A stretch of DNA of 64,000 bases from Synechococcus sp. Nb3U1 (GTDB lineage: Bacteria; Cyanobacteriota; Cyanobacteriia; Thermostichales; Thermostichaceae), in contig NZ_JAKFYQ010000001.1 in NCBI RefSeq assembly GCF_021533835.1, positions 1,928,427-1,992,426 on the forward strand, in the 5' to 3' direction. Below the pieces are notes generated by a model. The model saw only the letters and a program-made list of their open reading frames with translations, was not told the DNA's origin and ran no database searches. Made by a program: the position numbers and the translations under genes. Within the stretch, counting starts at the first letter, position 1. The number at the start of each line of letters is the position of its first letter. Positions 10,754 to 52,566 of this stretch are shown here, piece after piece.

Positions 10754-10824
10754 GGCCTCTCAGTTACCAATGGCTTCGATACGACCGATGGAAAATTTGA
10801 TATGGCGCATGGGGTGTGCGAGAC

Positions 10825-11132: not shown

Positions 11133-11196
11133 AGCTAACGGCTTGCCGCTCAGCCGCGCCGCCGAAGGCGGCGTCGGCTGGAGCGGCGGGTTGGGC
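11133..11196 (-). other. attC site of cassette 5 (GyrI-like)
   Basis: R'' GCCCAAC (11196-11190, minus strand) and R' GTTAGCT (11139-11133), 64 bp. It folds into an almost complete GC-rich hairpin around CGCCGCCGAAGGCGGCG. Confidence 0.9.
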
Positions 11197-11230
11197 GGCG
11201 CTTTGCGGTGCGAATTTATCCTTAGATTGC

Positions 11231-11701
11231 TTACTGCAGAGGAACACAATATTCCATAGTGTGCTCGTAGTAGACTTCAAAAATAGGGCGTTGCGAGTCT
11301 ATGATCAGTTGATGTTGCGGTATGTACTCCGTAAAGAAACGCCCGATAGTCTCTCCAATTGTAGCGGAGTTTTTGTCAAGCGATAGGACTGCATAACGTC
11401 CACCTGGTAGTTGCTTTGTTGAGATGTCTCCTGTGTTAGGGGATACTGCTGCAGTGAGCTCCAAGGCGCACTCATAACCGACCAATTGCGTATCATTTGT
11501 GTGTGGGATGCCAATCACCTTTAGTGCGGATGGATCATAACCGTGTTGTTGAACCCAATCTTTGATGCGTTGAAAACCGTCCCGAATTTTTTCGATGTAA
11601 TTGCCTGTAGTTTGCTGTATTTGGCAAGAAATATAAACAACGAAAACAGGTGGCAAATCTTGGAGAGTAACGTGTAATGATTGTCCAGAAAAAACGCTCA
11701 T
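11231..11701 (-). CDS. GyrI-like / AraC effector-binding domain protein
   Basis: A 156-residue soluble protein from the ATG at 11701 (MSVFSGQSL); an in-frame start at 11722 adds 7 residues. The pattern of paired beta-alpha-beta halves, ending with IFEVYYEHTMEYCVPL, fits the GyrI-like small-molecule-binding domain (SHS2 fold). Relatives bind hydrophobic ligands or gyrase; the ligand here is unknown. Sole gene of cassette 5. Confidence 0.65.
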   Translation of the reverse strand: MSVFSGQSLHVTLQDLPPVFVVYISCQIQQTTGNYIEKIRDGFQRIKDWVQQHGYDPSALKVIGIPHTNDTQLVGYECALELTAAVSPNTGDISTKQLPGGRYAVLSLDKNSATIGETIGRFFTEYIPQHQLIIDSQRPIFEVYYEHTMEYCVPLQ

Positions 11702-11770
11702 TAGAATCTCCTGTACTTGCAATTTGGTAGGTATCGCTCACAACTGTTAGCAATCGAATAGGGCACAGCC

Positions 11771-11858
11771 GCCCAACGTTCGCGCTCACCGGACACAGAT
11801 AACCTTTGCAACTCAACCAATTATGTTGACACGTTCCGGTGCAGCGCGGTTGTTAGCC
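11771..11858 (-). other. attC site of cassette 4
   Basis: R'' GGCTAAC (11858-11852, minus strand) and R' GTTGGGC (11777-11771), 88 bp. The interior nearly matches the attC at 3131-3217. Confidence 0.9.
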
Positions 11859-11874
11859 TGTATGGGAAGTGTGC

Positions 11875-12264
11875 TTACAGGTCTTCTAATAATGGGTTAC
11901 AAGCAAACATAAATTCTTCAACGGGTTTGCCTTCCAACAAATGCTCTTGAATAATGCGTTCACAAACCTCTGGTGTAACGTGACAATACCAAGTCCCTTC
12001 AGGGTAGACAACTGCAAGCGGGCCACCTCGACAAAACATCAAACATTCCACTTCTGTGCGATAAATGTTGTGTCCATCTTGAGTAAGTTGCTTCAGTCGT
12101 TTACCCAAATATTTCCAGGTTTTAGCACCTTCTTCAGCAGGGCAACAAGTATCTCCACTTTGGCGATGCCCTGTACACAATAAAATATGGCGTTCATAAC
12201 CACCTTGCCCATTAACAGCAATACCTCGTGATTTAGCCTTCTTTTGCAAGGGTTTGATATCCAT
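11875..12264 (-). CDS. Thioredoxin-like 2Fe-2S ferredoxin
   Basis: A 129-residue protein with the cysteine pattern of thioredoxin-like 2Fe-2S ferredoxins: [14 protein letters not shown] (first pair) and ECLMFCRGG (second pair, C-x3-C). Such proteins pass single electrons, often in cyanobacterial redox regulation or cofactor enzymes. It follows the SAM methyltransferase gene by 13 bp in the same cassette, so the two are likely co-transcribed. Confidence 0.78.
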
Positions 12265-12277
12265 AATAAGTGGTACT

Positions 12278-13099
12278 TTAACGATGGTTGGAAATTGCAG
12301 TATACAAGCGTGTGCGATAAATCAGTCTTACCAAACCTTGTCGATCGCAAGAGCGTTGATGGAATACGGCTAAGTCCGACATGAGTTTTTCTAAACCTTT
12401 TCCTTCAGATGGTGTAAATCCTTGACTTCGAGCTAAACCGATTAGTCCTGGAAGATCTAAGGATTGATTGGAGACGAACTCATGTCGCTGTAAGTTTGTA
12501 AAGTAAGGCAACCATAGCCCTTGCCAAAACAGTTGATAACGTATGCTCTTGAGCCATGTTTCCGGTTGCATTCCAGATCGGAATTGGTTCTCTTGATCTT
12601 GGGATACTGCAAAAACCAAGCGAGTGTATTCTTTGGAAACAAGGTCATCTTGATCCCAAAAACTCCATGTTAATGCTAAACGTCCACTGGGTTTGAGGAT
12701 ACGGCGAAACTCTTTGAGACTTTTATCAAAATCAAACCAATGAAATGCTTGAAATGAGGTGACTAAATCGACTGATGCACTATCCAGGGGAATTTGTTCA
12801 GCAGTGCCAACCAGAAACTCTACGTTTTCATGCGAGGTCGCTGATGTTCTCATGTCTTCGTTGGGTTCGATCGCCAGAACCTGAATCCCTCGATCTGCCA
12901 ACAATCTTGCTCCAATCCCTGTTCCTGCACCAACATCCGCAGCAACAATCTGACTTAAATATCCCAAATCTGACAAAATTGTGCCGATTGCTGAGGCAGG
13001 GTAAATCGGGCGATACTTTTCGTAATCTTCGCCTCGATCAGAAAAATAGCTCAATGGATTCGTGATCGAATCTGAGGCAGTGGAGAAATCAAAACTCAA
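12278..13099 (-). CDS. Class I SAM-dependent methyltransferase
   Basis: A 273-residue UbiE/COQ5-like methyltransferase. The glycine-rich SAM-binding motif I ([13 protein letters not shown]) lies at about residues 52-64, followed by the acidic residue in [10 protein letters not shown]. The substrate is not evident. First gene of cassette 4, about 55 bp from the cassette start, followed by the 2Fe-2S protein. Confidence 0.8.
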
Positions 13100-13154
13100 T
13101 TTTCAGCCTCGCTGCGAGTTGCATTTTTAGGTTAACACAGAACCCAAGATTGCA

Positions 13155-13211
13155 GGCTAACGAGAGCATCAGCCGCACGCGGAGCGTGCCGGCTGGATGC
13201 GCTGGTTATGC
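13155..13211 (-). other. attC site of cassette 3 (Argonaute)
   Basis: The shortest attC in the array, 57 bp: R'' GCATAAC (13211-13205, minus strand) and R' GTTAGCC (13161-13155). The arms (GCGCATCCAGCCGGCACGC and GCGTGCGGCTGATGC) fold into an almost full-length hairpin with unpaired bases on one strand, as needed for single-strand recognition by IntI. Confidence 0.93.
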
Positions 13212-13237
13212 CGCTTTTCTTTGAAGTTTACCTTCTT

Positions 13238-15382
13238 TTACAACCAGAATGGCACGTCCCCTTCTGAATCCTTTGGTTTGATGCCAAGCAGTGAAAATTC
13301 TCCAATCTTGTCGCTGTAATGAATCGTCACTGGCAAACGCGGCTCTCTAACCGAACCATAATGCAAGAGCGTCAGCGATAGCGCCGAATGAATAGCATTT
13401 TCGATTGAGAAGGATAGTTCTGTCCTGATTTGAAGCGGACATGGTGTGCTGCCTTTGAAAGGAGGCAGTGAAGAAACCAAGAATGCTTCCGTATCGCTTA
13501 TTTTAAATGCTGTCCCCTTCGGCGGTCTGTCTATAGCGGAGGCGGATGTGCTTTGATAAAGACGGGGGGCTCCAGATTTGATTACTTCAACCAGATGGAA
13601 CTCTGCACCAATCTGTTTTGCCCATTCCTTCAATGCCGATTTTTCTCCGCCACGAAATTGTCCGTCACGATGAATCACGACTCGTTTGCCTTGAAATTCC
13701 TTGAGAGGGAAAAGACTGCGCAGAATACTGCTTGGTATTGTTTCTCCTTCAATCGGTGCATCGTGGATAATGTATCGTAGAAATTGACCATCGCTGAAAT
13801 AGACTCTTGCCATGGCAGTCGCGTTCATGGTTCCCGATAACTTTTGTTTCGCTCTACGAGCAATATCAATCCCAACGACAATATCAGCGTAAGGAAGCGG
13901 TTTCGCTAAAACAAATGGAACGTTCCTTGTTTTTGCTAATATACCCAACACGATATTGTCCATCGCATATTTTTCAGAGAATGTATCTTCATAGACAACT
14001 TGGCTCGGGATACCAAGTCGCATTGTCAATGACTTGAAGACATGATACATGCTCGCTTCTTCGCCTTCTTCCCGCTCGTCGTGGTATGCACTTCCAGGGA
14101 ATAGAGCAAGAAAAATGTCAGGCTTTGCCGATTCGAAACAGTTTATTGCGTTTTCCAAATTTGCTCGCGAAAGTCTTTCGATCTTCTGTTGACGTTGTCC
14201 ATTGACTTCAACTGATTGAATAGAGAAATTCAATTTCTCCAACGCGGCTTTGAGCTTACGTAGGAACGTCATCAATGCTTGCTGCGCAACTTGCGATGAC
14301 GCGTTAATTACCCCAATTTTTATAGGGTGTTTTTTGTCAGGAAATGCATTTGAACGTTTAAATGCGCCATGCTTTTCCAAGCTCTCATAAATGCGTTGCC
14401 CTTGATGAATTTTATCGTCGCCAACACGCAATTTGGGCTCAAAGGCCACATCGTGCGGTCCCAAGAATGCTTGCGGCAATGATTCAGAATTGAAACTGTT
14501 GGCGAGAATTCCGTTGTTTTTACCAATAGCGGCAATTTCACGAACAAGAGTGTATCTTGTTTGTGGATCAAGCCGCAATGCTTCGGAAACTTGACGTGGC
14601 TTCACTTTAAATTTCTTGAGATCACCCATTCGAACGACAGGGCGTAACATACTTGCAATATAAATATATTGGCTTGTGCGAGTTTCAATTTTAACAGTCA
14701 GTTCATCATCAGGAGCGCGACTAATCAAATTGCGTGTCATCTCATCGCTGGATTTACTGAGAAGCCGTTCACGCATTTCGCGAACATTGCCAGTAATCTC
14801 GACGATTGTCCCTTTGAAATCCTTCGCTGTCACAGCGACCATCATTCCGACAAGTTCTTGCGGACTTTTCAGGGTGGCGGCAAACTCATGGAGTAATTGA
14901 GTATGAAAAATGTTGGACGAAACAGTGATGGAAATCGCTGGTTCGTTGTTCACTGCCCAACCGCGTAAAGCGTAGTCGCGGTCAACTCGGATTTTGCCGA
15001 AATTCTGTTTTTTCGGCTCAAGCACTCTCCGAATTTCTGCTTGGTGGTTTGCGAGCAAACCGCGAGCTGTGAATTCGCCCTGCTCCCAAGCCGAAGGTTC
15101 CCATTTTGTATTAAGAGTAACACTCAGCACATCATTTAATCGTTCTTCTGTCCATAATTGTTTCAGAAATTCTTCAATTGCTTCATCTTGGGGCGGCTTG
15201 TCTGTGATGATTTGACCACCGCACCATACCCAATTCCCACCAAACTTATTCCGCAAGCGATATGCTAACTTTCCGCCGATTGCCGATACATCATCGCTCA
15301 CCGCTTTGATTGTATAGGCAGACAGCTTGGGCAACGCCTGAGGAATAACAGGAAAGACATCAACGTAGATAATCATATCCAT
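13238..15382 (-). CDS. Prokaryotic Argonaute (long, catalytic-type)
   Basis: A 714-residue long pAgo. The C-terminal PIWI domain holds a full DEDX tetrad: D506 (GIDIARR), the glutamate finger in PIEGETIP (E545 or E547), D573 (HRDGQF) and D691 (HYSDKIGEF). The MID region (about 415-495) keeps residues typical of 5'-phosphate guide binding, including Q461, K471, N476 and K484. The N-terminal half (1-350) fits the N, linker and PAZ regions. Catalytic long pAgos use short DNA or RNA guides to cut invading or plasmid DNA. It is the only gene of cassette 3 and stops 27 bp before its attC core. An ATG two codons downstream is an alternative start. Confidence 0.9.
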   Translation of the reverse strand: MDMIIYVDVFPVIPQALPKLSAYTIKAVSDDVSAIGGKLAYRLRNKFGGNWVWCGGQIITDKPPQDEAIEEFLKQLWTEERLNDVLSVTLNTKWEPSAWEQGEFTARGLLANHQAEIRRVLEPKKQNFGKIRVDRDYALRGWAVNNEPAISITVSSNIFHTQLLHEFAATLKSPQELVGMMVAVTAKDFKGTIVEITGNVREMRERLLSKSSDEMTRNLISRAPDDELTVKIETRTSQYIYIASMLRPVVRMGDLKKFKVKPRQVSEALRLDPQTRYTLVREIAAIGKNNGILANSFNSESLPQAFLGPHDVAFEPKLRVGDDKIHQGQRIYESLEKHGAFKRSNAFPDKKHPIKIGVINASSQVAQQALMTFLRKLKAALEKLNFSIQSVEVNGQRQQKIERLSRANLENAINCFESAKPDIFLALFPGSAYHDEREEGEEASMYHVFKSLTMRLGIPSQVVYEDTFSEKYAMDNIVLGILAKTRNVPFVLAKPLPYADIVVGIDIARRAKQKLSGTMNATAMARVYFSDGQFLRYIIHDAPIEGETIPSSILRSLFPLKEFQGKRVVIHRDGQFRGGEKSALKEWAKQIGAEFHLVEVIKSGAPRLYQSTSASAIDRPPKGTAFKISDTEAFLVSSLPPFKGSTPCPLQIRTELSFSIENAIHSALSLTLLHYGSVREPRLPVTIHYSDKIGEFSLLGIKPKDSEGDVPFWL

Positions 15383-15430
15383 ATCGTAGTTTCTCCTTCT
15401 GGTGGGAACGCTTACACGGCGATATTAGCG

Positions 15431-15556
15431 GCATAACGATCAAGCTCAGCGACCGCCGCCGGAAACGCCCGGTCGGCTGTAACAGTCGCTGACAGATTAC
15501 CCGAACCGTCCGACTGCCCAGCGGGGCGGCGGTTCGCTGCAGCGCCCTGGTTAGGC
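15431..15556 (-). other. attC site of cassette 2 (126-bp type)
   Basis: R'' GCCTAAC (15556-15550, minus strand) and R' GTTATGC (15437-15431). The interior is nearly identical to the attC at 10373-10498 although the associated genes are unrelated. Confidence 0.9.
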
Positions 15557-15569
15557 CACGTCGTTGTCA

Positions 15570-16004
15570 TCACCAAAATCTCCACCAAGGCCGTGCCGCA
15601 GTCGGTTGCGATGTTGCCTTTTGGAGCGCTGCGGTATTGGTGAAGATGGAATCAACCAGCACTCTCATGTCCTCCTTCAGGGCGTGGGAATGCCCCACTC
15701 CAATCAGTCGGTTCTGCCACGATTGGTTGTTCTCGGTGATGAACTCTTGGTGCGCAGCTTCCACCAATCCCTCGACATATTTCCTGCCGATACCGAGGCC
15801 CGCAAGCTGATCAACGATAATCGCGTGAATGTCCCCGACATCCATGAAGCAATGCACTCTCCCAATCCCAAAGACGTAACCATAAAGCGTGAAGCCGAAG
15901 ACTTGGCACATCAACTCGTCCTCAAGCTTCCAACGCGGGTCGGATGTAACTTGGCGCGTGATCGCTTCCGACTTCCCTTTGGCGTGTTGTTTTAGGTCAG
16001 ACAT
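15570..16004 (-). CDS. Hypothetical protein (integron cassette 2)
   Basis: A 144-residue soluble protein (MSDLKQHAKGKSEAI...). It has a mixed composition with hydrophobic segments around residues 36-50 but no clear membrane span, and a Trp-rich end (RPWWRFW). No family is recognised. It begins 11 bp after the cassette start core and ends just before its attC, so it fills its cassette. Confidence 0.6.
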   Translation of the reverse strand: MSDLKQHAKGKSEAITRQVTSDPRWKLEDELMCQVFGFTLYGYVFGIGRVHCFMDVGDIHAIIVDQLAGLGIGRKYVEGLVEAAHQEFITENNQSWQNRLIGVGHSHALKEDMRVLVDSIFTNTAALQKATSQPTAARPWWRFW

Positions 16005-16014
16005 ACGTGGAGTG

Positions 16015-16111
16015 GCCTAACGACCAAGCTCAGCGGCGGCGGGGGCCGAGTGAGCTACATGGCACGAAAAGTCTACACGGCCCCGCCGTCGGCTGCAGCG
16101 CCTGGTTCGGC
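16015..16111 (-). other. attC site of cassette 1
   Basis: R'' GCCGAAC (16111-16105, minus strand) and R' GTTAGGC (16021-16015), 97 bp. R'' is the exact complement of the first core at 16541-16547. The C-terminal codons of the cassette 1 gene overlap the right part of this attC. Confidence 0.88.
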
Positions 16112-16501
16112 CTGCTTGGGCTTGCGGGGTTTGAAGACCTTGCTTTGCTTGACAACCCCGGCGCGGTCATACACGGTCCACTGACCGACCTTGTTGCCGC
16201 CCTCGTATGTCCCTTCGTCCCAAAGCTGACCGTTGTCGTAATACCGTTGCCAGTGGCCGACCTGGACGCCGAACAGGAACCCCCCGGCCTGGAGCGGCTG
16301 ACCATTCTCGCGCCACCACTGCCACAGTCCGTGAAGCTCTCCGTTTGCGTACTCGCCGACTGCCTTCCGCTGCCCGTTCTTATACCAGTACTCCCACCGC
16401 CCGTGCTTCCTTCCGCCCCGGTATGCCCCCTCGCCGGCAAGCGTGCCGTCGGAGAAGAGCTCGCGGTGTGGTCCGTCCTGCGGATGATCGTCTTGATTCA
16501 T
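16073..16501 (-). CDS. MORN-repeat / YwqK-like protein (integron cassette 1)
   Basis: A 142-residue protein from the ATG at 16501 (a TTG at 16522 would add 7). It carries about five repeats of the type G-x-W-x-x-Y/W-x-x-N-G-Q-x-x-x-x-G (GRWEYWYKNGQRKAVGEY, GLWQWWRENGQ, GHWQRYYDNGQ), as in MORN / YwqK-family proteins, some of which act as antitoxins or surface proteins. The lysine-rich tail overlaps the attC. It is the first cassette after attI and so probably the best expressed and most recently inserted. Confidence 0.72.
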   Translation of the reverse strand: MNQDDHPQDGPHRELFSDGTLAGEGAYRGGRKHGRWEYWYKNGQRKAVGEYANGELHGLWQWWRENGQPLQAGGFLFGVQVGHWQRYYDNGQLWDEGTYEGGNKVGQWTVYDRAGVVKQSKVFKPRKPKQAEPGAAADGGAV

Positions 16502-16540
16502 GGGGTTCCCGTTCTGCCTCAAACGTCAAGCCCTTCCGCC

Positions 16541-16763
16541 GCCGAACCAGTGATTAAACTGCACGATCAACCTACATCGGTAGTATATCCCCCAACTTGC
16601 AAGGATAAACGGCAAAACAGCCCATATCCAGCCCCTGCCAGCCATCTGAATACACAAGCTGTACCCGCCAGATCACAGTTTAGTCAACCTATGTTAAGTT
16701 TCGCTAAGTTCATAGAGGTGTTGGATAGCATGTAGATTGTAAGGATATACGGCATGGATCCTC
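16541..16763 (-). other. attI region between the first cassette and intI
   Basis: The core GTTCGGC (minus strand, 16547-16541) marks the junction with cassette 1. To its right about 215 bp separate it from the integrase frame. This holds a 16-bp direct repeat with two mismatches, G[C/T]AAGGATA[A/T]ACGGCA (16599-16614 and 16739-16754), and the close pair TTAAGTTTCGCTAAGTT (16694-16710), both possible IntI or regulator sites. The exact attI extent cannot be fixed by eye. Confidence 0.6.
16658..16687 (-). promoter_or_regulatory. Candidate cassette promoter (Pc)
   Basis: On the minus strand TTGACT (16687-16682) is followed after 18 bp by TACAGC (16663-16658), pointing toward the cassette array. 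The -35 match is good and the -10 is poor. It is placed where an integron promoter is expected, but the sequence support is weak. Confidence 0.25.
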
Positions 16764-16856
16764 ATGAGCGGTTTCCCAGAAGTTGACCCCAGGTTTGACG
16801 AAGTGGTGAGATCTGAGCAGATCCCACCAGCACGATGATCCGATTATCGGAAGTGG

Positions 16857-18122
16857 GTGCGCTTCTACCTGCATTTCTGTAACAAGTATGGGCATCAACC
16901 AGGGGATCCTGGGAGTCTGCCGCTTTTTATCGCAAAACTGGCATCCAAGGGACAGACGGTGGAACAACAGGCGGAAGCGCAGCGGGCAGTTAGCTCCCTC
17001 CTCTCGCCATCTATTGAACTAAGGGGGAAGGCCCAGGCCCAGTCCGAAACCATAGAACTAGTAGTCGCTGACGAGAACTCAGTCGCTCCCATCGCAAAAG
17101 TCATACCGACGGTGGCCAAGGGGGGCTTACTCCCCGACAAGAAAAAACCGGATCCGATACGGGATCCTTGGCAGGAAGTGGCTGACAAGCTCAAAGCACA
17201 GATTATGCTGCGCCATTACTCACCCAGAACTCTAAAGGCTTACTCAACCTGGATGTGGAAACTCTGTCGGTTTTTAGACAATCAGCTACCATCAGAGGTC
17301 ACAAGCCAAGATGTCCAGCGGTTCCTAACAGATTTGGCGGTACGGCAGCAGGTCTCTGCCTCAGCTCAGAATCAAGCCTTTAACGCCCTACTGTTTCTCT
17401 TTCGACACGTCTTCGAGCGTGAGCTTGGAAACTTTGCGGATACCCCCAGAGCCAAACGCAGGCAGTCGATACCCACAGTGCTTTCTCGCTCAGAAGTGGC
17501 TTCACTCATCGAACAGTTGCAGCCACCCTATCGATTGATGGGGAAGCTCCTTTATGGATGCGGTTTGCGTCTTTCCGAGGCGCTATCTTTGCGGTTGCAT
17601 AATTTCAACTTTGATACCGGTATGCTCTCGGTACAGTTTGGTAAGGGGAGGAAATCTCGGACAGTGCCATTACCAGAGAGTATTCAGGGTGAGATTCAAG
17701 CGCAAGTAGAGCGCATCAAAGCTCTCCATCAGGAGGATTTAGCCAGGGGGTATGCCGGAGTATTTATGCCAGGAAACTTTGAAAAGAAAGCCAAAGGAGC
17801 GGCGCGAGAGCTAGCCTGGCAATGGTTTTTCCCTGCTCCCAACCTGACAAGGGTTAAAGAAACAGGGGAACTGCGTCGCTACCATGTGCAAGAAACCGAT
17901 ATTCAGCGAGCCATCAAAGCCGCTGCCTTGAGGGCCGGGATCCTGAAGCGAGTTTCACCGCATACCTTACGCCACAGCTTCGCCACCCACCTGCTGCAAG
18001 CCAATTACGATATCCGTCAGATCCAGCAGATGTTGGGTCACAGTGATGTCCGCACCACGATGATTTATACCCACACCATCAAGTCCGACCTCAAGCCGCT
18101 AAGAAGCCCATTGGATCTGTGA
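16857..18122 (+). CDS. intI: Integron integrase IntI (N-terminal in-frame TGA upstream)
   Basis: Tyrosine recombinase of 421 residues from the GTG at 16857. The catalytic set is complete: R238 (GLRLSEAL), K263 region (GKGRKSR), H369-x-x-R372 (HTLRHSF), H395 (LGHSD) and Y404 (MIYTH). The extra IntI-specific patch absent from XerC/XerD is present (about 300-328, ending LAWQWFFPAP). The same frame continues upstream to an ATG at 16764 (MSGFPEVDPRFDEVV...), interrupted only by a TGA at 16836-16838. The upstream residues run straight into the SAM-like N-terminal domain, so the original gene probably started at 16764 and suffered an Arg-to-stop change; whether the shorter form works is unknown. There is also an unusually long segment (about 50-105) before the core-binding domain. 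It diverges from the cassettes, the canonical integron layout. Confidence 0.92.
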   Translation: MRFYLHFCNKYGHQPGDPGSLPLFIAKLASKGQTVEQQAEAQRAVSSLLSPSIELRGKAQAQSETIELVVADENSVAPIAKVIPTVAKGGLLPDKKKPDPIRDPWQEVADKLKAQIMLRHYSPRTLKAYSTWMWKLCRFLDNQLPSEVTSQDVQRFLTDLAVRQQVSASAQNQAFNALLFLFRHVFERELGNFADTPRAKRRQSIPTVLSRSEVASLIEQLQPPYRLMGKLLYGCGLRLSEALSLRLHNFNFDTGMLSVQFGKGRKSRTVPLPESIQGEIQAQVERIKALHQEDLARGYAGVFMPGNFEKKAKGAARELAWQWFFPAPNLTRVKETGELRRYHVQETDIQRAIKAAALRAGILKRVSPHTLRHSFATHLLQANYDIRQIQQMLGHSDVRTTMIYTHTIKSDLKPLRSPLDL

Positions 18123-43050: not shown

Positions 43051-43815
43051 TTGTTGGGATCCCTGGCTGTGGTAGAGCCACTGCAACTGACCCAGTTTCC
43101 AGATCTGCCCATTGATCTGGCCCAAGCCTGTGAACAAGCGATCCAGGCGACTCGATTGGCGATGCAAGCTGGGTATCGTCGCTTGCTAGTCGAGATCATC
43201 GCTCCTGACCTGAAGCCGGAGGTGTTGGCGCGTCCTTTCCTAGATCTGGTGCAGCCACCGGCGTTGGTGTTGTTTAGCGATGCGGGAGGGGCGGCCCTGG
43301 CGCAACGGGAATGGGACTCTACACCAGAGGGATTGCAACTGCAAAGCCTCAGCCCCCGCACTCAGCCCAGCCCGGAGCAAAGTGTCTTGTTGGTGATGCC
43401 GGCAGTGTATGGCCTGGATCAGGTGGAACGAGTTTGCCAGCTAGTCAGTGGTGGGGATCCCTCCGGGTTGGCTCAGAAAGGGCGGGATCCCAAGCCGGTG
43501 ATTTTGCTCAACCCGCAATTGCAGGATGCGGCCACTGTGGGGGTGGGCTTGGCCGGTCGCCGCTTGCGTCAGCGCTTCTTGAGTACCTTTGAAACCAGCT
43601 ACTACCTGCGCTCGTTGGTGGAAGGGGCGTTGTTTCGGGCGTATCCGGATCCCTGGAGTGTTTGGCAACAGGAAGAGCCAGGCCTGTATGGCGTCTTGCA
43701 AACCCTGCCTGCCCAGCCGACGGGAGAAGAAGTTGCTGAGTTGTTCAGGGCCACTGCCGCAGCAAGAAGGGATCCCTGGTGGGGCTGGCGGCGGTGGTTT
43801 GGATCCCGGCGTTGA
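43051..43815 (+). CDS. DUF1995-like protein
   Basis: About 254 residues if it starts at one of the TTG codons near 43051; the frame is open back to 42913 inside the GUN4-domain gene but lacks a good start after it ends. The pattern (PIDLAQACEQAIQATRLAMQAGYRRLLVEII, then P-x-LVLFSDAGGAAL and AYPDPW) fits the DUF1995 / LPA3-like family linked to photosystem assembly in plants. The start is uncertain. Confidence 0.6.
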   Translation: MLGSLAVVEPLQLTQFPDLPIDLAQACEQAIQATRLAMQAGYRRLLVEIIAPDLKPEVLARPFLDLVQPPALVLFSDAGGAALAQREWDSTPEGLQLQSLSPRTQPSPEQSVLLVMPAVYGLDQVERVCQLVSGGDPSGLAQKGRDPKPVILLNPQLQDAATVGVGLAGRRLRQRFLSTFETSYYLRSLVEGALFRAYPDPWSVWQQEEPGLYGVLQTLPAQPTGEEVAELFRATAAARRDPWWGWRRWFGSRR

Positions 43816-43864
43816 ATAATGATAATCATTTGGGCTCGGCTCTTCTTTCAGCAGCCTCGATGCC

Positions 43865-45157
43865 TCAATCCCGCACAACAGCCCGCCGCACCTTCAGGGG
43901 GACAGGCTCCCTCATCAAGCGTTTCCACTCTTGCCAATAGGCTCGAATGGGCGCTTCGCTGGCAATAGAGCCTGTGACCCGGCCCCAATCATCCTGTCGA
44001 TCACCCGCTTGCTCCCCCCGGCTGATATCCAACCACTCCTCCTCAGGGATCCCCAACCCCTCCTGGATGCGCTCAAAAATCGCCAAATCATCCGGGGTGC
44101 CAAAGCTGACAAAATCCTCGTCCACCCGTAATCGCAGCAGATTGATCTCCTCGGGTACATCCGTCGCCACTGCGAGGTATAGGTTGATGCGGGTGCGATC
44201 CACCGCTAGAGGTTCTATTACCATCAGTTGGTTACCCACAAGAATCAAATTGGGAAAGAGGCTGAGGTTGACCATGTTGCCGGTAGCCAGATCCAGCAGT
44301 TCGGGAGGATACTGAGCCCGTAGGGATCCCTCCAATTCCTCGCAAGTCGGCAGTTGTCGCATGGTTGACCACGGGCCGCCCGGGATCCCAGGCCGTTGAT
44401 CCACCACACAATGCCCATGGCCAAGGGTTTGGCTGACCATCGGGGTGCTGGCTGGATTGCGGGCCAGAACAGTCTTCGTCTTAGCTTGGTGGCCGAGTTG
44501 GTTGTAGGAGCGATGGGCAAAGGTGGCATGGATCCCATCGGCAGCATTGTCCCAAAGCAGCTTCCAGTTGCCAGCAAACTCCAGCCGAACCGGAGAGTCC
44601 AACAGCCGGATGGTACCCTTGGGATGACGATTGAGATGCTCATCCAGCCACGGCAACGCTGCTCCTAACCAGTTCGCCAGCTTCGGGGGGTCTGCGGCCA
44701 AGGTGCCAAAGATCAAGCCCCGATAGGTCTCCACCCGCAGCTGGCCCAAATGAAACGACGCCTTGTGGGGGTTGGCGTAGCTTTCGGCTACAGGCAAGGT
44801 GTGCAGGTGACCGTCCAAGTCAAAACACCAGCCATGATAGGGGCAGGTCAGGCGCTGGCTGCATCCCCTGTCCGCCGTGACCAGGAGGGTGCCACGGTGG
44901 GTACAACGGTTGAAGAGGCCATGAATCTGGCCATCCCGCCCCCAGGTCAGCAAAATGGGGCGCCGACCCAGGGTTCGACGGACGAAGGAGCCTGGTTGAG
45001 GGAGCTCGCTGTCGTGCCCCAAGTAGTTCCAAGTCCCGCCAAAAATGCGCTCCATCTCCAGCTCGAATAGGGCGGGATCCGTGTAGAGACAGCGATGCAC
45101 TCGGTCTGACTGGATGAGCCAGTCAAAATTAGGTGAGTCGGTGGTGGGAAAGACCAT
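43865..45157 (-). CDS. Rieske non-heme iron dioxygenase, alpha subunit
   Basis: A 430-residue aromatic-ring-hydroxylating dioxygenase large subunit from the ATG at 45157 (MVFPTTDSPNF); an earlier start at 45190 overlaps the beta gene. The Rieske centre is CTHRG (C-x-H) then CPYHGW (C-x-x-H). The mononuclear iron site follows in NWKLLWDNAADGIHATFAHRS. It catalyses O2-dependent hydroxylation of an unknown substrate using an external ferredoxin/reductase, not encoded here. Last gene of a seven-gene leftward operon. Confidence 0.9.
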   Translation of the reverse strand: MVFPTTDSPNFDWLIQSDRVHRCLYTDPALFELEMERIFGGTWNYLGHDSELPQPGSFVRRTLGRRPILLTWGRDGQIHGLFNRCTHRGTLLVTADRGCSQRLTCPYHGWCFDLDGHLHTLPVAESYANPHKASFHLGQLRVETYRGLIFGTLAADPPKLANWLGAALPWLDEHLNRHPKGTIRLLDSPVRLEFAGNWKLLWDNAADGIHATFAHRSYNQLGHQAKTKTVLARNPASTPMVSQTLGHGHCVVDQRPGIPGGPWSTMRQLPTCEELEGSLRAQYPPELLDLATGNMVNLSLFPNLILVGNQLMVIEPLAVDRTRINLYLAVATDVPEEINLLRLRVDEDFVSFGTPDDLAIFERIQEGLGIPEEEWLDISRGEQAGDRQDDWGRVTGSIASEAPIRAYWQEWKRLMREPVPLKVRRAVVRD

Positions 45158-45177
45158 AGCCAGACTCCGTTCAAAAC

Positions 45178-45786
45178 CTATAGCAACCAACCCATCTGCC
45201 GGGATCCCTGGGCTAGGTCTGGAATCAGCAGGGTTTTGCGAACCATCTCAAACCCAAACCCCTCCACTTTAGGCCCCTCAGGGCGCAAGCGGTGGATCTG
45301 ACGGGCCACCACCCGGCAGGGCTGGGATCCCACACCCCCGTGAAGTATCAGGGCACTGCTGGCCACTACCATCCTTTCGCCCTCCTCTGTGCGGGGGTGT
45401 TCCCAGGCTTCAACACTGGTGATCGCTCGCACCGTTTCTGGCAGGGGTTGGATCCCCCAGGCATAGGGATCCCTCAGACGCCAGACTCGCTCCTGCAATC
45501 GCCGCCGATCATCCAAAAACAGTGCCTGATCCGCTCCCGGATGACTGTCCCGCCGCAATGGGATCCAGTACCACCCCTGGGGATCCCAGAGCTGGAGCCA
45601 CCGCTCAAAATGTCCCGCATCCAACAGACGGGCTTCTAGGGCCAAAAAACGGGCCACATCTGCCACAAGAGCCTGATTGGTGGCCAGAGGGGCAGCCAGC
45701 ACCCAATCGCGATCCGCGGCCAAATCATCGTAAAGGGCTTTAACCCGTTCCACCCCCCCTTGAGGAGAGAGTTGTACAGAACTCAT
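45178..45786 (-). CDS. Ring-hydroxylating dioxygenase, beta subunit
   Basis: A 202-residue NTF2-fold small subunit with the family features (ARFLALEARLLDAGHFERWLQLWDPQGWYWIPLRR and TSVEAWEHPR). It stabilises the alpha trimer. The start overlaps the permease stop as ATGA, and its end meets the alpha gene, so subunits are made together. Presence of a beta subunit points to the classical alpha3-beta3 aromatic dioxygenases. Confidence 0.85.
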   Translation of the reverse strand: MSSVQLSPQGGVERVKALYDDLAADRDWVLAAPLATNQALVADVARFLALEARLLDAGHFERWLQLWDPQGWYWIPLRRDSHPGADQALFLDDRRRLQERVWRLRDPYAWGIQPLPETVRAITSVEAWEHPRTEEGERMVVASSALILHGGVGSQPCRVVARQIHRLRPEGPKVEGFGFEMVRKTLLIPDLAQGSRQMGWLL

Positions 45787-47366
45787 CCCACCACCTGCTC
45801 AGGGGCCACCTGCGACAATACCAACCGTTCTAACCCCACCACCAAGCCATACCCCACCACCGATACCAACGTCAGCACCACCACCGCACTCCACAACAAA
45901 CCGTAGTTGCTGGTGGAGTAGGTGAGGGCCATCAGGTTGCCGATGCCGGTGCCGGTAGCCAGCCATTCTGCCACCGTTGTTGCTAGCACTGCGGTGGGCA
46001 CGGCGATGCGAGCGCTGGCAAAGAAGGCGGGTAACGCCGCCGGTAGACGGGCCAACATCAGGATTCTCAGTCGGTGGGCGGCGAAGGTGTTGAACACATC
46101 AACCACCTGCCCCGGCACCTGCCGCAACCCCTGGGCGCAGGCGATCAAGGTGGGGAAGAAGGTCATCACCGCCACCAGCGTGATCAGGCTGGCGCCACCC
46201 CGCCCCAGAATGATGATCACCAGTGGGGCAGTGGTGATGATGGGCACTGAACGCAGGGCAATAGCCACCGGCATCGCCCCTTGCCGCACCATTGGAAACA
46301 GCTCAAATACACAGGCTGTGAGTAAGCCCGCCATCAGGCCGACAAAATAGCCCGGCACCATCACCCGCAGCGTGGATCCCAGGGCCTGAAATACTTGTTC
46401 TCGATGGGATCCCGCGTTGGCATGGGTAACCAAAAACTCCCACACATCCCCCGGCCGCTTGGCAAAAAAGCGGTTGAGGTTGAGCCAATCCATGCTCGTC
46501 TGCCACGCCAGTAGGATCAGCAGCCCCGTCAACAGTGCCATCCCCAAAGAGATCCACCCTGGTGCTGGCTTGCGGTTGGAGCGGGCCGTCAGCAAGAGAG
46601 GGGGGGCCCCCGGAGATAGGCACTGCCCGAACGCCACCGCCAGAAGATAAACCGCGATGGAAGCCACCGTCGCTAGGCTGGCCACCGTCCAAGTGGCCAC
46701 CACATCCAGCGACCGAATCCCCTGAATCACCAGCACCCCCAGGCCCCGTTCGGCACCGGTAAATTCCCCCACCATCGCCCCCAAGACCGCTGCTGGTGCC
46801 GCCACCTGCAACCCGGCCACCAGATAGGGCACAGCAGCACGCGCCCGCACATACCGCAGCATCGCCAGTCGACTACGACCATAGCTGGCCACCAGATCCG
46901 CCCAACTGGCGGGAATAGCCCGCAGCCCCACCACCAGGGGCACAAAGGTAGTGTAATAGACTGCCAGGGCCGCCAGGGTAATTTGCGGGCCATCGGAGGT
47001 GCCAAATATCACCCGCAGCACCGGCCCTGTGGCCACCAGCGGCAGACAGAACACCACTAGAGCCAGGTTTTGGATCAATCCCTCGCTCACTGGAAACAAG
47101 GCCACCACCACAGCCAACAGCATGGCCGCCCCATTGCCATATAGGAAACCCCAAGCCGCCTCCCGCAGGGTCACCAGTAGGGCACGAGCATACAGATCGG
47201 GACGACTGGCCAACCGTTCCCCGATAGCGCTGGGGGCCGCCAAAATATAGCGTTCCGATAGCAGCAGCCGCACCAGCAGCTCCCAAGCCAATAGCAAGCC
47301 CCCAACCATAAGTAGGCTGTTGGCCCCTAGCAGTATCCCTTGTGGCCCAGCCCTGAGCCGGCTCAC
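45783..47366 (-). CDS. ABC transporter permease, two fused domains (SsuC/ThiX-like)
   Basis: A 527-residue protein made of two BPD_transp_1 permease domains in tandem (about residues 15-255 and 270-515), each with about six membrane spans and an EAA-type loop (AIPASWADLVASYG; GLRQVPGQVVDVFNTF). In most taurine/nitrate/thiamine-precursor importers these are two copies of one chain; here they are fused. It overlaps the ATPase gene and the beta-subunit gene by 4 bp on each side. Confidence 0.88.
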   Translation of the reverse strand: MSRLRAGPQGILLGANSLLMVGGLLLAWELLVRLLLSERYILAAPSAIGERLASRPDLYARALLVTLREAAWGFLYGNGAAMLLAVVVALFPVSEGLIQNLALVVFCLPLVATGPVLRVIFGTSDGPQITLAALAVYYTTFVPLVVGLRAIPASWADLVASYGRSRLAMLRYVRARAAVPYLVAGLQVAAPAAVLGAMVGEFTGAERGLGVLVIQGIRSLDVVATWTVASLATVASIAVYLLAVAFGQCLSPGAPPLLLTARSNRKPAPGWISLGMALLTGLLILLAWQTSMDWLNLNRFFAKRPGDVWEFLVTHANAGSHREQVFQALGSTLRVMVPGYFVGLMAGLLTACVFELFPMVRQGAMPVAIALRSVPIITTAPLVIIILGRGGASLITLVAVMTFFPTLIACAQGLRQVPGQVVDVFNTFAAHRLRILMLARLPAALPAFFASARIAVPTAVLATTVAEWLATGTGIGNLMALTYSTSNYGLLWSAVVVLTLVSVVGYGLVVGLERLVLSQVAPEQVVG

Positions 47367-48193
47367 CGCTGCACCTCCAACATCTGCTCCAGTCCCAATG
47401 CCTCTGAGACTTGAGCGACCAGGTGATGAAATTCTGGGGAGCGCAAGATCTGAGCTGAGCGAGGTCGGGGCAGCCTTACCGGGATTCGGGCCACGATTTG
47501 GCCTGGCCTCGCGCTCATGACCACGATCTCATCAGCCAGCAGCACCGCCTCGTCGATGGAGTGGGTGACCAACAGAGCCGTCGCCCCTCGGTTTTCCCAG
47601 AGGCTGGGCAACTCCAGATTGAGCCGCCGTCGCGTCAGCTCATCCACCGCCCCAAACGGCTCATCTAGCAGCAGCAGTCGGGGCTGGGTGATGAGACAGC
47701 GGGCGATAGCCGCCCGTTGCCGCATGCCCCCCGACAGCTCGGCCGGTTTGGCCCGTTCAAACCCCTCAAGACCTATCCGCGCCAACAGATCTCGAATCAC
47801 CTGCCGATCCACCGACTGCCGGGCCAGGGTTTGGGCCAGAGCCACATTCGACTCCACGCTGCGCCAGGGCAGCAATGAGGGATCCTGAAAGGCGACGGCG
47901 ATCTCCCCCCGCTTCTTCAGCACCACGGGCGGTAGGCCGTCGATCAGCACCTGGCCAGAGGACAACTGCTCCAACCCCGCGATCGCCCGTAGTAGGGTGG
48001 ATTTGCCACAGCCCGATGGCCCCACCAGCGCCGTCAGGGATCCCGGTTGCAACCGCAGGTTGATATTGGCCAGGGCTGGCACCTGAGATCGCCCCCAGCC
48101 GAAGATCTTGCTGCCCTCCACCACCCGCACCTCTGGGGGCTGGATGGCTCTGGGATCCCTTAGGTTGGCTCTAGATGGTAGATCGACCGTCAT
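47363..48193 (-). CDS. ABC transporter ATPase (SsuB/TauB/ThiZ-like)
   Basis: A 276-residue ATPase: Walker A GPSGCGKST, Q-loop AVAFQDPSLLPW, signature LSGGMRQRAAIAR, Walker B LLLLDEPFGAVDE, H-loop VTHSIDEAV. The set matches the NitT/TauT family. It overlaps the substrate-binding gene by about 23 bp and the permease by 4 bp. Confidence 0.92.
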   Translation of the reverse strand: MTVDLPSRANLRDPRAIQPPEVRVVEGSKIFGWGRSQVPALANINLRLQPGSLTALVGPSGCGKSTLLRAIAGLEQLSSGQVLIDGLPPVVLKKRGEIAVAFQDPSLLPWRSVESNVALAQTLARQSVDRQVIRDLLARIGLEGFERAKPAELSGGMRQRAAIARCLITQPRLLLLDEPFGAVDELTRRRLNLELPSLWENRGATALLVTHSIDEAVLLADEIVVMSARPGQIVARIPVRLPRPRSAQILRSPEFHHLVAQVSEALGLEQMLEVQR

Positions 48194-49190
48194 AGATCTC
48201 TTCTAAGATTGAGCGATCCCAAAGAGCAGGGGTGACCTCCTCTCCTAGGAGGTTGAGGGTTTCCACATTGGCAGCCACTGTGTCATCGGTAAACCAGCCA
48301 AATCCGTTCTGGTCAGTCAAATCCGAGAACATCAGCTTCAGCTGCTCCCTGGCCTGTAGTTTCTGGGTCTCCAGATCCAGGCCAGCATCCGGGAACATCG
48401 CTAGGGTCAGCTCAGCAGCCGCGTCGGTATCGGCTTTGTAGTCTTGCCAGCCCCTGATCTCCCCGCGCAGGAGGCCGATCACCTCCTCTCGGCGGGTTTC
48501 TAGGCTCTTTTCTAGGACAATGTAGGTCTGGCTATGAACGGTGTAGCCATAGTCCGCCATCAACAGGGTGACGTTGTCGATCCCCTGGACGGTCATAGCT
48601 ACGGGCAAGTCGGTGAGCCAACATAACAGACAGTCCACTTCGCCATTCACCAACGGGGCGGCATCGTACTGGGTAGGGATGATGGTGATCTGGTCGATAT
48701 CCACATCGTTGAGGGTGCAGAGGGTCTGCAACACAGGGGTGTTGGCGGTGGCCATGCCGATGCTCTTACCCTCCAGATCTTTGGGCTCGTTCACCGGGTT
48801 AGCCGGCAAAGAGGCGATAGCAAAGGGGTTTTTCTGCATCGCCACCGCGATGATCTTGAAGGGAGCCCCTTGCGAGACGGCAGCCGCCGTGTAGTCTGCC
48901 GCCGAGATGCCCATCAAGGCGGTGCCACTCACCACGGGCGGCTCGACGGGCGCGTTGGGGCCGCCGGGTACTAAGCTCACCTCCAACCCCTCTTCAGTCC
49001 AGTACCCTTTATTCTGGGCAATGTAGCTGCCCCCGAACTGCACCGAGTGCAACCAGGAAAGCTGAAAGCCCACCGATGTAGCGGCACGGACATAGGAAGA
49101 CCGCAGCAATGAGGAGCCAGCCACAAAGGCCCCACCAGCCCCCAAGAGTTTGATGGCGCTACGACGAGAAAAAACATGAGATCCAGACAT
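48171..49190 (-). CDS. NMT1/THI5-like ABC substrate-binding protein, Tat-exported
   Basis: A 339-residue solute-binding protein from the ATG at 49190 (MSGSHVF). It has a twin-arginine-type signal (SRRSAIKLLGAGGAFVAG) followed by the NMT1/SsuA-like fold (FQLSWLHSVQFGGSYIAQNKGYWTEEGLEVSLVPGG). Family members carry pyrimidine thiamine precursors, sulfonates, nitrate or aromatics. The linked ring-hydroxylating dioxygenase makes an aromatic or heterocyclic ligand plausible; this is inference. Confidence 0.85.
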   Translation of the reverse strand: MSGSHVFSRRSAIKLLGAGGAFVAGSSLLRSSYVRAATSVGFQLSWLHSVQFGGSYIAQNKGYWTEEGLEVSLVPGGPNAPVEPPVVSGTALMGISAADYTAAAVSQGAPFKIIAVAMQKNPFAIASLPANPVNEPKDLEGKSIGMATANTPVLQTLCTLNDVDIDQITIIPTQYDAAPLVNGEVDCLLCWLTDLPVAMTVQGIDNVTLLMADYGYTVHSQTYIVLEKSLETRREEVIGLLRGEIRGWQDYKADTDAAAELTLAMFPDAGLDLETQKLQAREQLKLMFSDLTDQNGFGWFTDDTVAANVETLNLLGEEVTPALWDRSILEEIYDGRSTI

Positions 49191-49271
49191 CAAACCCTCT
49201 TGAGACAGAGAGAAAAACAGCTCGCTGCCCCAAAAGTGCCCCAACTGTTGAGGTAGATTCTGTACCTATAG

Positions 49272-50111
49272 CTACTGCTCTTGCCAAAAGGCCGCAACAG
49301 GCCACGCTCGCTCCACAACAGAAGTCTCGGGGTGAGCATAGCGAATGGAAATCCGCCGGAAGGGATGGGGACAGGCCTGGCCACCAGCGTGGAGGGTGCG
49401 GGAATCCAGAATCATGACATCCCCAGGCTGGAAACTGGGGGCAAGAATCCGGAACTTAGGATCCAGTCTTTTCCCTTGCATTGCCCCATCAATATCAGGA
49501 ACGGGAGCAAGAATATGCCCCCCCTCAGCCAGAGTGGCCTCCGCCGCAGAAAATTCAACAGGGGCGTAGAGCGGCCCGTGATGGGATCCCACCACAGCCC
49601 GTAATCCTTGCCCTTCCAGAACCCTGTCCAATGGAATCCAAAAGGTTAGAAACCAGGGCTCAAGAGGGTGATAGGGGTGATCCTGATGCCAGGGGCTGAG
49701 GGTTTGGGATCCAGCCTCCGAGTAAAAAAACTGATCTTCTAGCAAGAGAACCGAATGGGTGCCAAAGACACTTGCTGCTAGCTCGGGCAGGATCCCTTGA
49801 GTTGCAACCCCAGCCAGGGTTTCATCCTCGAGCCAGCGAAACAAGTCGCTTTGAGTAACGGGCTCGCCGGGTGGGGAGAGCGTCCGAAAATGAGGCCCTG
49901 GCTTAGCCCGTAAACGATCGATCGTCCGAATCAATGCAGCGCACAAATTGGGCTCAAGGATCCCTGGCAGCACAGCCACTCCATCTTGCCCAATCTGCTC
50001 AGACAGCAGGGAGCGGGGGCGGGAGGGAACCTCCAGCAACTTCATGCCCAATTTGAGCTGTAGTCTAGTTGGTAAGGCCATCCGCAAGACATCTTCAATA
50101 ACTTTCAACAA
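49272..50111 (-). CDS. Phytanoyl-CoA dioxygenase (PhyH)-like oxygenase
   Basis: A 279-residue Fe(II)/2-oxoglutarate oxygenase of the PhyH family. The iron facial triad appears as H-x-D in SPWHQDHPYHPLEPW and a distal His in SRTLHAGGQACPHPFRRISIR, whose Arg would bind 2-oxoglutarate. Its place at the head of the dioxygenase/ABC operon suggests it acts on the same imported compound. Confidence 0.82.
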   Translation of the reverse strand: MLKVIEDVLRMALPTRLQLKLGMKLLEVPSRPRSLLSEQIGQDGVAVLPGILEPNLCAALIRTIDRLRAKPGPHFRTLSPPGEPVTQSDLFRWLEDETLAGVATQGILPELAASVFGTHSVLLLEDQFFYSEAGSQTLSPWHQDHPYHPLEPWFLTFWIPLDRVLEGQGLRAVVGSHHGPLYAPVEFSAAEATLAEGGHILAPVPDIDGAMQGKRLDPKFRILAPSFQPGDVMILDSRTLHAGGQACPHPFRRISIRYAHPETSVVERAWPVAAFWQEQ

Positions 50112-50126
50112 GTTTCAATAAATAGC

Positions 50127-50555
50127 CTATTGAGGGGGGCACTTCCGCTCAAGTTTCAATACCCCCAGTTGCTCGTAGACTGACAGACCATCCCAGATAG
50201 ACCAACATTGCGCAAAGCGCCCCCCCGACAACCGCAGCAGATCAATGCCCGTCATGGTAATTCGCTTTTGGGTGGCGGGAATGTCATCGTAGGTATCTAC
50301 GTGTAGGCCACTTGTGGTCCAGTGCAGCACCACCATATCTCCTTCCGTAACGAGATGATCGATCCGGGTTTCCACCTCCTTAAACGCTTTGAAATAGCGT
50401 TCCACATCCGCTTTAACCACATCGATGCCATTGCCATCAAAGCCGGTCATGTGAACTACAGCTGTGGGTAGCCAGTAGTCCTCTACTGCGCTGAGATCCC
50501 CTTGGGCCCAGAGGCGGGTGTGGTACTCGCGAACAATATCAGCATTGGTGCTCAT
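50127..50555 (-). CDS. SnoaL-like ester cyclase / NTF2-like protein
   Basis: A 142-residue NTF2-fold protein from the ATG at 50555 (MSTNADIVREYH); an open extension to 50594 is not needed. Features of SnoaL-like polyketide/ester cyclases: VVHMTGFDGNGID, VLHWTTSGLHVD and ITMTGIDLLRLSGGRF. First gene of the leftward operon, 16 bp before the PhyH gene. Substrate unknown. Confidence 0.75.
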   Translation of the reverse strand: MSTNADIVREYHTRLWAQGDLSAVEDYWLPTAVVHMTGFDGNGIDVVKADVERYFKAFKEVETRIDHLVTEGDMVVLHWTTSGLHVDTYDDIPATQKRITMTGIDLLRLSGGRFAQCWSIWDGLSVYEQLGVLKLERKCPPQ

Positions 50556-50782
50556 CAGGGATCCCTTTACTGGCTTGCATGAGTAGGGCGGCACAACCCC
50601 AAGTTTGACGTGGCCACCCCCGAGTCGCCAAGTCTAAGGTCTCAAGACTATGCCCACAATTGCTCGGCTATTCCGGCTATTCCAGTATCGATAGACCTTT
50701 ACAATTGAGATCGGCTGAGATCGGCATTCCAGGGATGTCAGGGTGGGAGCGGATGCGCTGGCCAGAGAGAGGAGAAAAGCGT

Positions 50783-51030
50783 ATGGGCTTGCTACCAGCA
50801 GGAGATATGGGTGGCACCAAGACCAGCCTTAGCCTTGCCGATGTAGGATCCCAGCCGCTGGCGCTGCTGCTATCTCAGTCAAGATTACCCCAGCCTTGCC
50901 CCGATCCTGCAGGAGTTGCTGCCATGAGCTCAGCAGAATGACCAACCAGTACATTCAGGGGCAAGGGAAGCCGTCCTAGAACAATGGGGCTTGTATCCCA
51001 TTGATTTGGCCAAGGAGCTGAAGCTGAAAC
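50783..51030 (+). pseudogene. glk: Glucokinase remnant
   Basis: An ATG at 50783 opens MGLLPAGDMGGTKTSLSLAD, which matches the phosphate-binding N-terminus of cyanobacterial glucokinase (usually D-I-G-G-T-K-T). After about 30 codons the homology moves to another frame (SQDYPSLAPILQELLP then TGA, near 50876-50926), and a trace continues near 50980-51030 (PIDLAKELKL). Only the N-terminal part is left, with at least one frameshift and stops, so it is a decayed gene. The rest is absent because the thiC riboswitch begins at about 51088. Confidence 0.65.
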
Positions 51031-51087
51031 GAACAAATTGTGAAGCTCCCCGCCCTACTTCAACTCAGGTGATAACATTACACCACG

Positions 51088-52566
<1,479 letters not shown>

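Follow-up and report, generated by a model that had tools for sequence, protein, structure and literature searches.

A mobile importer-oxygenase cassette in Synechococcus sp. Nb3U1 and the possible uptake and oxidation of a pyrimidine-like ring

From our analysis of a 64,000-nucleotide stretch of the Synechococcus sp. Nb3U1 genome (contig NZ_JAKFYQ010000001.1, positions 1,928,427 to 1,992,426; hereafter the window), we describe an operon of seven open reading frames (ORFs) on the minus strand at 43865-50555, in which the genes of an ATP-binding cassette (ABC) importer stand together with those of a Rieske oxygenase and a second, PhyH-type oxygenase. All seven genes that an earlier sequence-only reading had named are present at those positions, and each matches its named Pfam family above the gathering score. 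The genes are listed below in their 5' to 3' order (SnoaL starts at 50555 and alpha ends at 43865), with the ratio of nonsynonymous to synonymous divergence (dN/dS) from the copy in a congener (G005), and are followed by the segment that contains them.

50127..50555, minus strand: SnoaL-like protein, 142 amino acids (aa); PF07366, 85.5 bits; dN/dS 0.098
49272..50081, minus strand: PhyH-type Fe(II)/2-oxoglutarate (2OG) oxygenase, 269 aa from ATG; PF05721, 56.7 bits (gathering 22); dN/dS 0.170
48171..49190, minus strand: NMT1/ThiY-type substrate-binding protein, 339 aa; PF09084, 137.3 bits (gathering 20.5); dN/dS 0.071
47363..48193, minus strand: ABC importer ATPase, 276 aa; PF00005, 120.6 bits; dN/dS 0.121
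45783..47366, minus strand: fused permease, 527 aa; two transmembrane modules, PF00528 in two stretches; dN/dS 0.134
45178..45786, minus strand: Rieske oxygenase beta subunit, 202 aa; PF00866, 57.3 bits; dN/dS 0.193
43865..45157, minus strand: Rieske oxygenase alpha subunit, 430 aa from ATG; PF00355 and PF00848; dN/dS 0.126
43808..51028, no strand: inserted segment, approximate extent relative to congeners without it, from the flanking aligned blocks

With ATG or GTG starts, neighbouring genes overlap at three of the six junctions (by 23, 4 and 4 nt) and are separated by gaps of 45, 81 and 20 nt at the others; a possible TTG start of alpha at 45190 would bring the overlapping junctions to four of six. 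The description of these genes as nearly all coupled by overlaps was thus overstated. An alternative TTG start is also possible for the PhyH gene (at 50111), and the binding protein, when started at 49190, has a twin-arginine signal in its translation (judged by eye). The congener G005 carries all seven genes in the same order at 77-91% identity (80-91% amino-acid identity over aligned residues), with dN/dS of 0.07-0.19 across the seven as compared to 0.038 for thiC, the single host gene compared. Synonymous divergence between the two genomes is 0.39-0.75 in the operon, on the order of that of thiC (0.72). All seven genes are constrained as proteins by purifying selection, and because G005 keeps all of them in order at such dN/dS values, the seven-gene set is more than a chance assembly.

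The view that uptake and oxidation form one unit is supported by the recurrence of a core that consists of binding protein, ATPase, fused permease, beta, alpha, SnoaL and an Fe/2OG oxygenase. It is present in six genomes: the window genome, G005, the alphaproteobacteria Harenicola maris (L047), Pacificibacter marinus (L048) and a further member of Rhodobacterales (G631; L164), and the actinobacterium Pseudonocardia sp. CNS-139 (L058); as the order and phylum searches covered samples, the number of cassette genomes is at least six. Among the best 80 loci from an alpha scan of genome contigs, only those of Harenicola, Pacificibacter and Pseudonocardia also carry the binding protein (3/80), and their alphas are 62%, 61% and 59% identical to the window copy; the remaining 77 alphas are at most 45% identical by best segment, and the Nostoc alpha described below 46-48%. 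In Harenicola's order (292 genomes), alpha was found at E up to 1e-120 in two genomes, Harenicola and G631; in the latter, the seven families all lie together, accompanied by an additional 2OG oxygenase. A search of 249 genomes from the order of another cassette host (G419) gave no alpha and is uninformative, since G419 itself was missed at that threshold, presumably because its alpha lies in two segments. In a sample of 386 cyanobacterial genomes (E up to 1e-50 for alpha and 1e-40 for the binding protein), alpha was found in two, the window's own and a Nostoc with an aniline-type copy, and the binding protein in the window's own only; G005, found among the relatives, evidently lies outside this sample. 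The operon is thus rare in cyanobacteria, in agreement with its having been called unusual for a phototroph. We found no description of this gene set in the open-access literature, as judged by titles and abstract openings.

SnoaL is present in all six cassettes, with orthologues 50-61% identical in L047, L048, L058 and L164. The kind of Fe/2OG oxygenase varies: the two cyanobacterial cassettes encode PhyH, and those of Harenicola and Pacificibacter a protein of another family (DIOX_N/2OG-FeII_Oxy); G631 carries both kinds and Pseudonocardia a pair of PhyH proteins. In Pseudonocardia, alpha and the permease are split between frames and the copy may be broken or mis-sequenced. Relatives of the window PhyH protein are 80% (G005; L046), 50% (L164) and 42% (L058) identical; the HxD motif is present in all four aligned rows, and the distal His and Arg in three, the fourth (L058) being out of frame there (both by eye), and PF05721 together with HxD places the protein among the PhyH-type Fe/2OG oxygenases. 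No match of alpha, PhyH or SnoaL as a defence gene was obtained with PADLOC.

Comparison of six genomes of the genus revealed alpha at high identity in two, the window genome (G000) and G005, and the binding protein in the same two, and all four other congeners (G001-G004) are without the operon. The aligned blocks that flank the insertion end at window positions 43793-43807 and resume at 51023-51068, and they lie ∼939, 594, 65 and 80 bp apart in G001-G004, where thiC has as its near neighbour the DUF1995 gene that stands left of the operon in the window; the corresponding distance in the window is ∼7.2 kb. In G005 the operon is on a different contig from thiC, at a hisZ-like locus (by eye), between direct repeats of 922 bp that are 96.9% identical (L046:6662-7580 and 15700-16621), in a draft of 120 contigs in which an assembly fault at this locus is possible. 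The cassette is mobile and horizontally acquired, with different insertion sites in the two congeners. Its gene order in Harenicola, Pacificibacter and G631 is binding protein, ATPase, permease, beta, alpha, SnoaL and 2OG oxygenase, and Pseudonocardia has the same order with one PhyH gene before and one after, while in both cyanobacterial copies SnoaL and PhyH come first; this rotation would fit passage via a circular or tandem form. The operon is not a very recent arrival, because the host-typical word GGGATCCC is near host density within it (11 copies in the operon of each cyanobacterial genome). By eye, we also noted that the direct repeats of L046 correspond to the 3' end of the hisZ-like gene, that one of these repeats has transposase-like ORFs next to it (7612-8449), and that an ORF at window 50660-50941 resembles the start of glucokinase, perhaps a remnant at the insertion edge.

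The alpha subunit retains the Rieske CxH/CxxH pair and the Fe ligands D207, H210 and H215, and its predicted model (predicted local distance difference test, pLDDT, 90.8) resembles biphenyl and toluene dioxygenases in fold (Z ∼40). With intact motifs and PF00355, PF00848 and PF00866 above gathering, alpha and beta belong to the Rieske ring-hydroxylating oxygenases, and alpha falls below every NCBIfam equivalog cut-off compared (BenA 195.9/780.95, AntA 178.5/671.9 and HcaE 155.8/830 bits). A phylogeny of 91 alphas groups those of the six cassettes in one clade with support of 100 in the Shimodaira-Hasegawa-like approximate likelihood ratio test (SH-aLRT), joined (SH-aLRT 99) to 41 alphas that form a clade of their own (SH-aLRT 89); a glutamine-synthetase-like (GS) gene is present in the locus of all 41 of these sister alphas and in none of the six cassette loci. 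Three labels mapped on this tree require two changes, the minimum (shuffled mean 34.9; 0/200 shuffles as low). The tree was built by a quick method, without bootstrap and with a midpoint root, after dropping five duplicate loci and alpha matches covering <60% of the query in one segment; long branches were flagged, that of L058 among them. The possibility that alpha clusters with a known biosynthetic oxygenase found no support in this tree, which places it as sister to the aniline type and included no biosynthetic oxygenase. The Nostoc copy is a separate case: plasmid pn1 of Nostoc sp. UHCC 0926 (L031:9122-12802) has a GS-linked, aniline-type Rieske alpha/beta set.

Eleven alpha positions are identical in the five full-length cassette rows and fixed at ≥90% to another residue in the 41 GS rows, and six of these fall at 209-236, around D207, H210 and H215; the L058 alpha agrees at eight of the eleven, the other three being in its out-of-frame stretch. 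The simplest reading of such fixed differences near the Fe ligands, judged from the alignment, is that the substrate may have changed relative to the GS-linked alphas. Membership of the aniline (gamma-glutamylanilide) systems does not follow, as alpha lies outside the GS-linked clade and the cassette loci are without a GS-like gene. Nevertheless, being sister to that clade, the oxygenase could belong to an aromatic amine route, in which the importer would bring in an aniline-like compound or an amide conjugate, replacing the glutamylation of the aniline systems, and the Rieske enzyme would release catechol and ammonium. In favour of this route, the oxygenase of one member of the GS-linked type is reported to use the gamma-glutamylated amine as substrate and not the amine itself (PMC11335346). 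We consider this route rather unlikely in view of the fixed differences around the Fe ligands, the missing GS-like match (in the window genome, the Nostoc GS-like protein has its best matches at 32-33% identity and none higher), the lack of an intradiol enzyme in either cyanobacterium and the thiamin-type sequences and folds nearest to the binding protein.

These last comparisons concern the importer. A profile built from 43 binding proteins matched the thiamin-bound 4nmy at 3.4e-27, the formylaminopyrimidine (FAMP)-binding 3ix1 at 1.5e-16, THI13/THI5 at 3.5e-12 to 3.4e-10 and TauA at 2.5e-4. The predicted model of the binding protein (pLDDT 88.8) gives the same ranking by fold: 4nmy (Z 31.0, root-mean-square deviation 3.3, 287 aligned), 3ix1 (Z 30.2, 3.6, 291) and Thi5 (Z 27.5, 3.5, 289), then SsuA (Z 23.3, 3.0, 273) and TauA (Z 19.0). 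With PF09084 and with thiamin, FAMP and Thi5 proteins as its nearest solved relatives, the protein is of the NMT1/THI5 type, as far as the predicted model tells of its fold. The broad SsuA/TauA/NrtA superfamily to which it belongs, and the taurine, nitrate and SaoA/SaoP models that are the best NCBIfam matches of the ATPase and permease, would also accommodate a sulfonate, phosphonate or nitrate-type importer whose oxygenases release sulfite, phosphonate or ammonium. The NCBIfam matches, however, are far below the curated cut-offs (binding protein: SsuA_fam 19.4/163.5 and taurine 17/304.25 bits), and SsuA and TauA rank below the thiamin-type proteins by profile as well as by fold, which makes this explanation quite improbable.

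Relatives of the fused permease on Rhodobacterales plasmids align across both modules. At E up to 1e-80 the binding protein gave 38 matches in 37 of the 292 Rhodobacterales genomes, and 36 of these matches have no alpha, SnoaL or 2OG partner scoring above 60 bits within the ∼9 kb retrieved to either side, which contig ends shortened in some cases. The transporter thus occurs elsewhere without the oxygenase, a result that counts against the sequence-only reading, and the importer is an independent module that has been joined to the oxygenase. In the tree of binding proteins the six cassette copies stand apart on the best tree (four label changes), and a single clade is not rejected (approximately unbiased test, p 0.317); L058 and L130 have long branches there, and duplicate loci, short segments and proteins of <33% identity were dropped. 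L165-L200 make up a conserved Rhodobacterales cluster in which the importer stands with GT4, CDP-alcohol phosphotransferase, sulfatase-like and LPG-synthase-like genes.

Such a glycolipid-like setting of the importer relatives speaks for a biosynthetic or lipid-modifying cassette, in which a natural-product or surface-lipid precursor, brought in by the importer, would be tailored by SnoaL and the oxygenases in the manner of natural-product SnoaL cyclases and PhyH hydroxylases. The nearest solved relatives of SnoaL (a predicted ester cyclase and a putative polyketide cyclase) and of PhyH (MysH, E 2.6e-10) point the same way. On the other side stand the sister relationship of the Rieske alpha to the aniline-type clade and the cassette-locus ORF lists, in which no assembly-line gene was seen by eye, no dedicated search having been made; we regard this alternative as unlikely.

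The genes around the cassettes in two relatives point in another direction. Divergent from the Harenicola cassette stand genes for members of the cytosine deaminase (NF005759; 621 bits against a cut-off of 403), creatininase and RidA families, and their partners in Pacificibacter are 72-79% identical. The Pacificibacter 2OG oxygenase has an ethylene-forming enzyme as its best solved relative (6.4e-46) and thymine dioxygenase 5c3p as its second (2.3e-39), and PyrD-, PyrE- and hydantoinase/carbamoylase-family genes lie further downstream; no PyrD/PyrE/hydantoinase-type genes were seen in the Harenicola stretch (ORF list read by eye). Taken together, the profile and fold of the binding protein and these nucleobase-type neighbours favour a pyrimidine-like ring. 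From an original choice of aromatic, heterocyclic or sulfonate ligand, the heterocyclic option fits better than a sulfonate or plain aromatic one, given the thiamin/FAMP/Thi5 grouping and the nucleobase-type enzymes in two relatives.

Our leading, tentative explanation is a horizontally acquired, mobile importer-oxygenase cassette that would take up a pyrimidine-like N-heterocycle and oxidise it. After export, the ThiY/NMT1-type binding protein would capture this small compound, whose ring is most likely a substituted pyrimidine or one like it, and the ATPase and fused permease would import it. The alpha/beta Rieske oxygenase could then hydroxylate the ring or an N-substituent with electrons from a general host ferredoxin and reductase, the PhyH enzyme might carry out a second hydroxylation or a dealkylation, and the SnoaL protein, for which we envisage an isomerase, hydrolase or dehydratase role on the oxygenated product, may isomerise, dehydrate or hydrolyse what they form. 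Several observations weigh against this explanation. Nucleobase-type partners occur in only two of the six cassettes: the cyanobacterial operons are without one, G631 has tartrate dehydrogenase, aldehyde dehydrogenase, M19 peptidase and BCCT transporter genes as neighbours, and Pseudonocardia a luciferase-like flavin enzyme and GH38. In the 36 oxygenase-free importer loci, a GT4 glycosyltransferase lies 3' of the permease on the same strand in 35, and a CDP-alcohol phosphotransferase and a sulfatase-like gene in 32 each, a company that does not suggest pyrimidine. The nearest alphas are of the aniline type; no riboswitch reached the gathering score in the operon, L046, L047, L048, L058 or L164; and a shared fold gives no substrate, so a pyrimidine-like ligand is a leading but unproven guess.

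Three ferredoxin/reductase/PDR queries matched none of the six cassette loci, those of non-cyanobacterial hosts included, which is a weak test as only 19 of the 41 GS loci were matched; a PyrK-like protein is encoded several kilobases downstream of the Pacificibacter cassette. Since all six loci, and not only the cyanobacterial ones, are without a match, the absence of a reductase seems to characterise the clade as a whole. The sequence-only reading had expected ferredoxin and reductase from elsewhere, perhaps photosynthetic ferredoxin; the latter suggestion is weakened, with the non-cyanobacterial loci equally unmatched in the same weak test. Intradiol dioxygenase (PF00775) was not found in G000 or G005 in a search that did not extend to extradiol enzymes, and it is present in four non-cyanobacterial hosts (G417, G418, G631 and G419). 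If the pathway yielded a catechol, intradiol cleavage would thus not be available to the cyanobacteria; nitrogen salvage or detoxification is therefore likelier than growth on carbon, and the cyanobacterial gain is probably nitrogen (or detoxification).

As for regulation, the only thiamin pyrophosphate (TPP) riboswitch matched in the window (51080-51181, plus strand, 58 bits) precedes thiC, and none was found before the operon or in L046. Thiamin control of the operon was rejected, because this neighbouring riboswitch belongs to thiC and the G005 copy sits elsewhere; the adjacency of operon and thiC is probably incidental. An NtcA-like GTA-N8-TAC palindrome lies at 49262-49275 between PhyH and binding protein and is kept in G005. 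As a sign of nitrogen control it was also rejected, since the motif occurs at chance level in the window (4 observed, 3.16 expected; 38 of 100 shuffles reach 4). The promoter scan found none and the terminator scan nothing above shuffles.

A more specific scheme, which we put forward as doubtful, is an oxidative route that acts on an aminopyrimidine, or on a ring derived from thiamin, after its import. The oxygenase recruited for it would be a sister of those of the aniline type, with import of the ready-made substrate replacing intracellular glutamylation; the Rieske, Fe/2OG and SnoaL proteins would together break the ring down and release nitrogen, and the set would move between alphaproteobacteria, an actinobacterium and a phototroph. 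No such route was met in the literature searched.

Elsewhere in the window, GGGATCCC is a palindrome with 61 copies against 2.1 expected, all within 18205-63236 and none in 1-18000. The stretch 1-18122 carries a phage-type integrase (16857-18122), a prokaryotic Argonaute (pAgo, 915 bits; 13238-15382), a HerA/DUF87 protein (4935-7049) and two type II-like DNA methyltransferases, and looks like a recently acquired defence island.

We then compared the cassette with known systems. It shares the alpha/beta Rieske pair with the aniline dioxygenase systems (tdn/atd/npa, gamma-glutamylanilide type), whose alphas are the nearest sister clade. It differs from them in having no GS-like match (0/6), in having an ABC importer, SnoaL and an Fe/2OG oxygenase, and in the fixed differences near the Fe ligands. 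The iad operon of Variovorax (indole-3-acetate; IadD/IadE) likewise combines binding proteins of the ABC type with an alpha/beta Rieske oxygenase, and has binding proteins of the aromatic B-III subclass and a reductase of its own, IadC (PMC10374108). The best phmmer match of our alpha is 7yls, of the same sequence as 8h2t (IadD/E), whereas by fold IadD (Z 35.9) is below the biphenyl dioxygenases (Z 40.2); the cassette binding protein, in contrast to those of iad, is ThiY/NMT1-like, and the operon is without a reductase gene. With the ThiXYZ/ThiY importer of pyrimidine precursors the cassette shares the NMT1/THI5 domain and the nearest solved sequences and folds, and it departs from that importer in its fused permease, the oxygenases in the operon and the absence of a TPP riboswitch in front. 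Residues near the N-terminus of the binding protein differ from those of the FAMP protein (alignment by eye). The xanthine/uric acid (NMT1-motif) riboswitch governs genes that include those for pcbC-like 2OG oxygenase, NMT1, hcaE and amidohydrolase (PMC7373994). This mix resembles L047, L048 and L164, although no riboswitch was matched at the cassettes; the xanthine riboswitch gave no match at E up to 2 in these three loci, the presence of the family in Rfam 15 not being established.

In essence, the cassette is an importer-coupled Rieske system with an oxygenase related to, and distinct from, that of the aniline type, and our reading of its ligand is offered as unproven. A compact subfamily is hereby defined by six Rieske alphas from three phyla, with fixed differences around the Fe centre and a ThiY-like importer. 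If the ligand is a pyrimidine or a vitamin fragment, the cassette would represent a new oxygen-dependent route for such rings and a phototroph that scavenges them; if it is something else, the cassette still allows Rieske systems linked to an importer to be told apart from those linked to a ligase, and the presence or absence of a GS-like gene provides a rule for annotating genes that resemble aniline dioxygenases.

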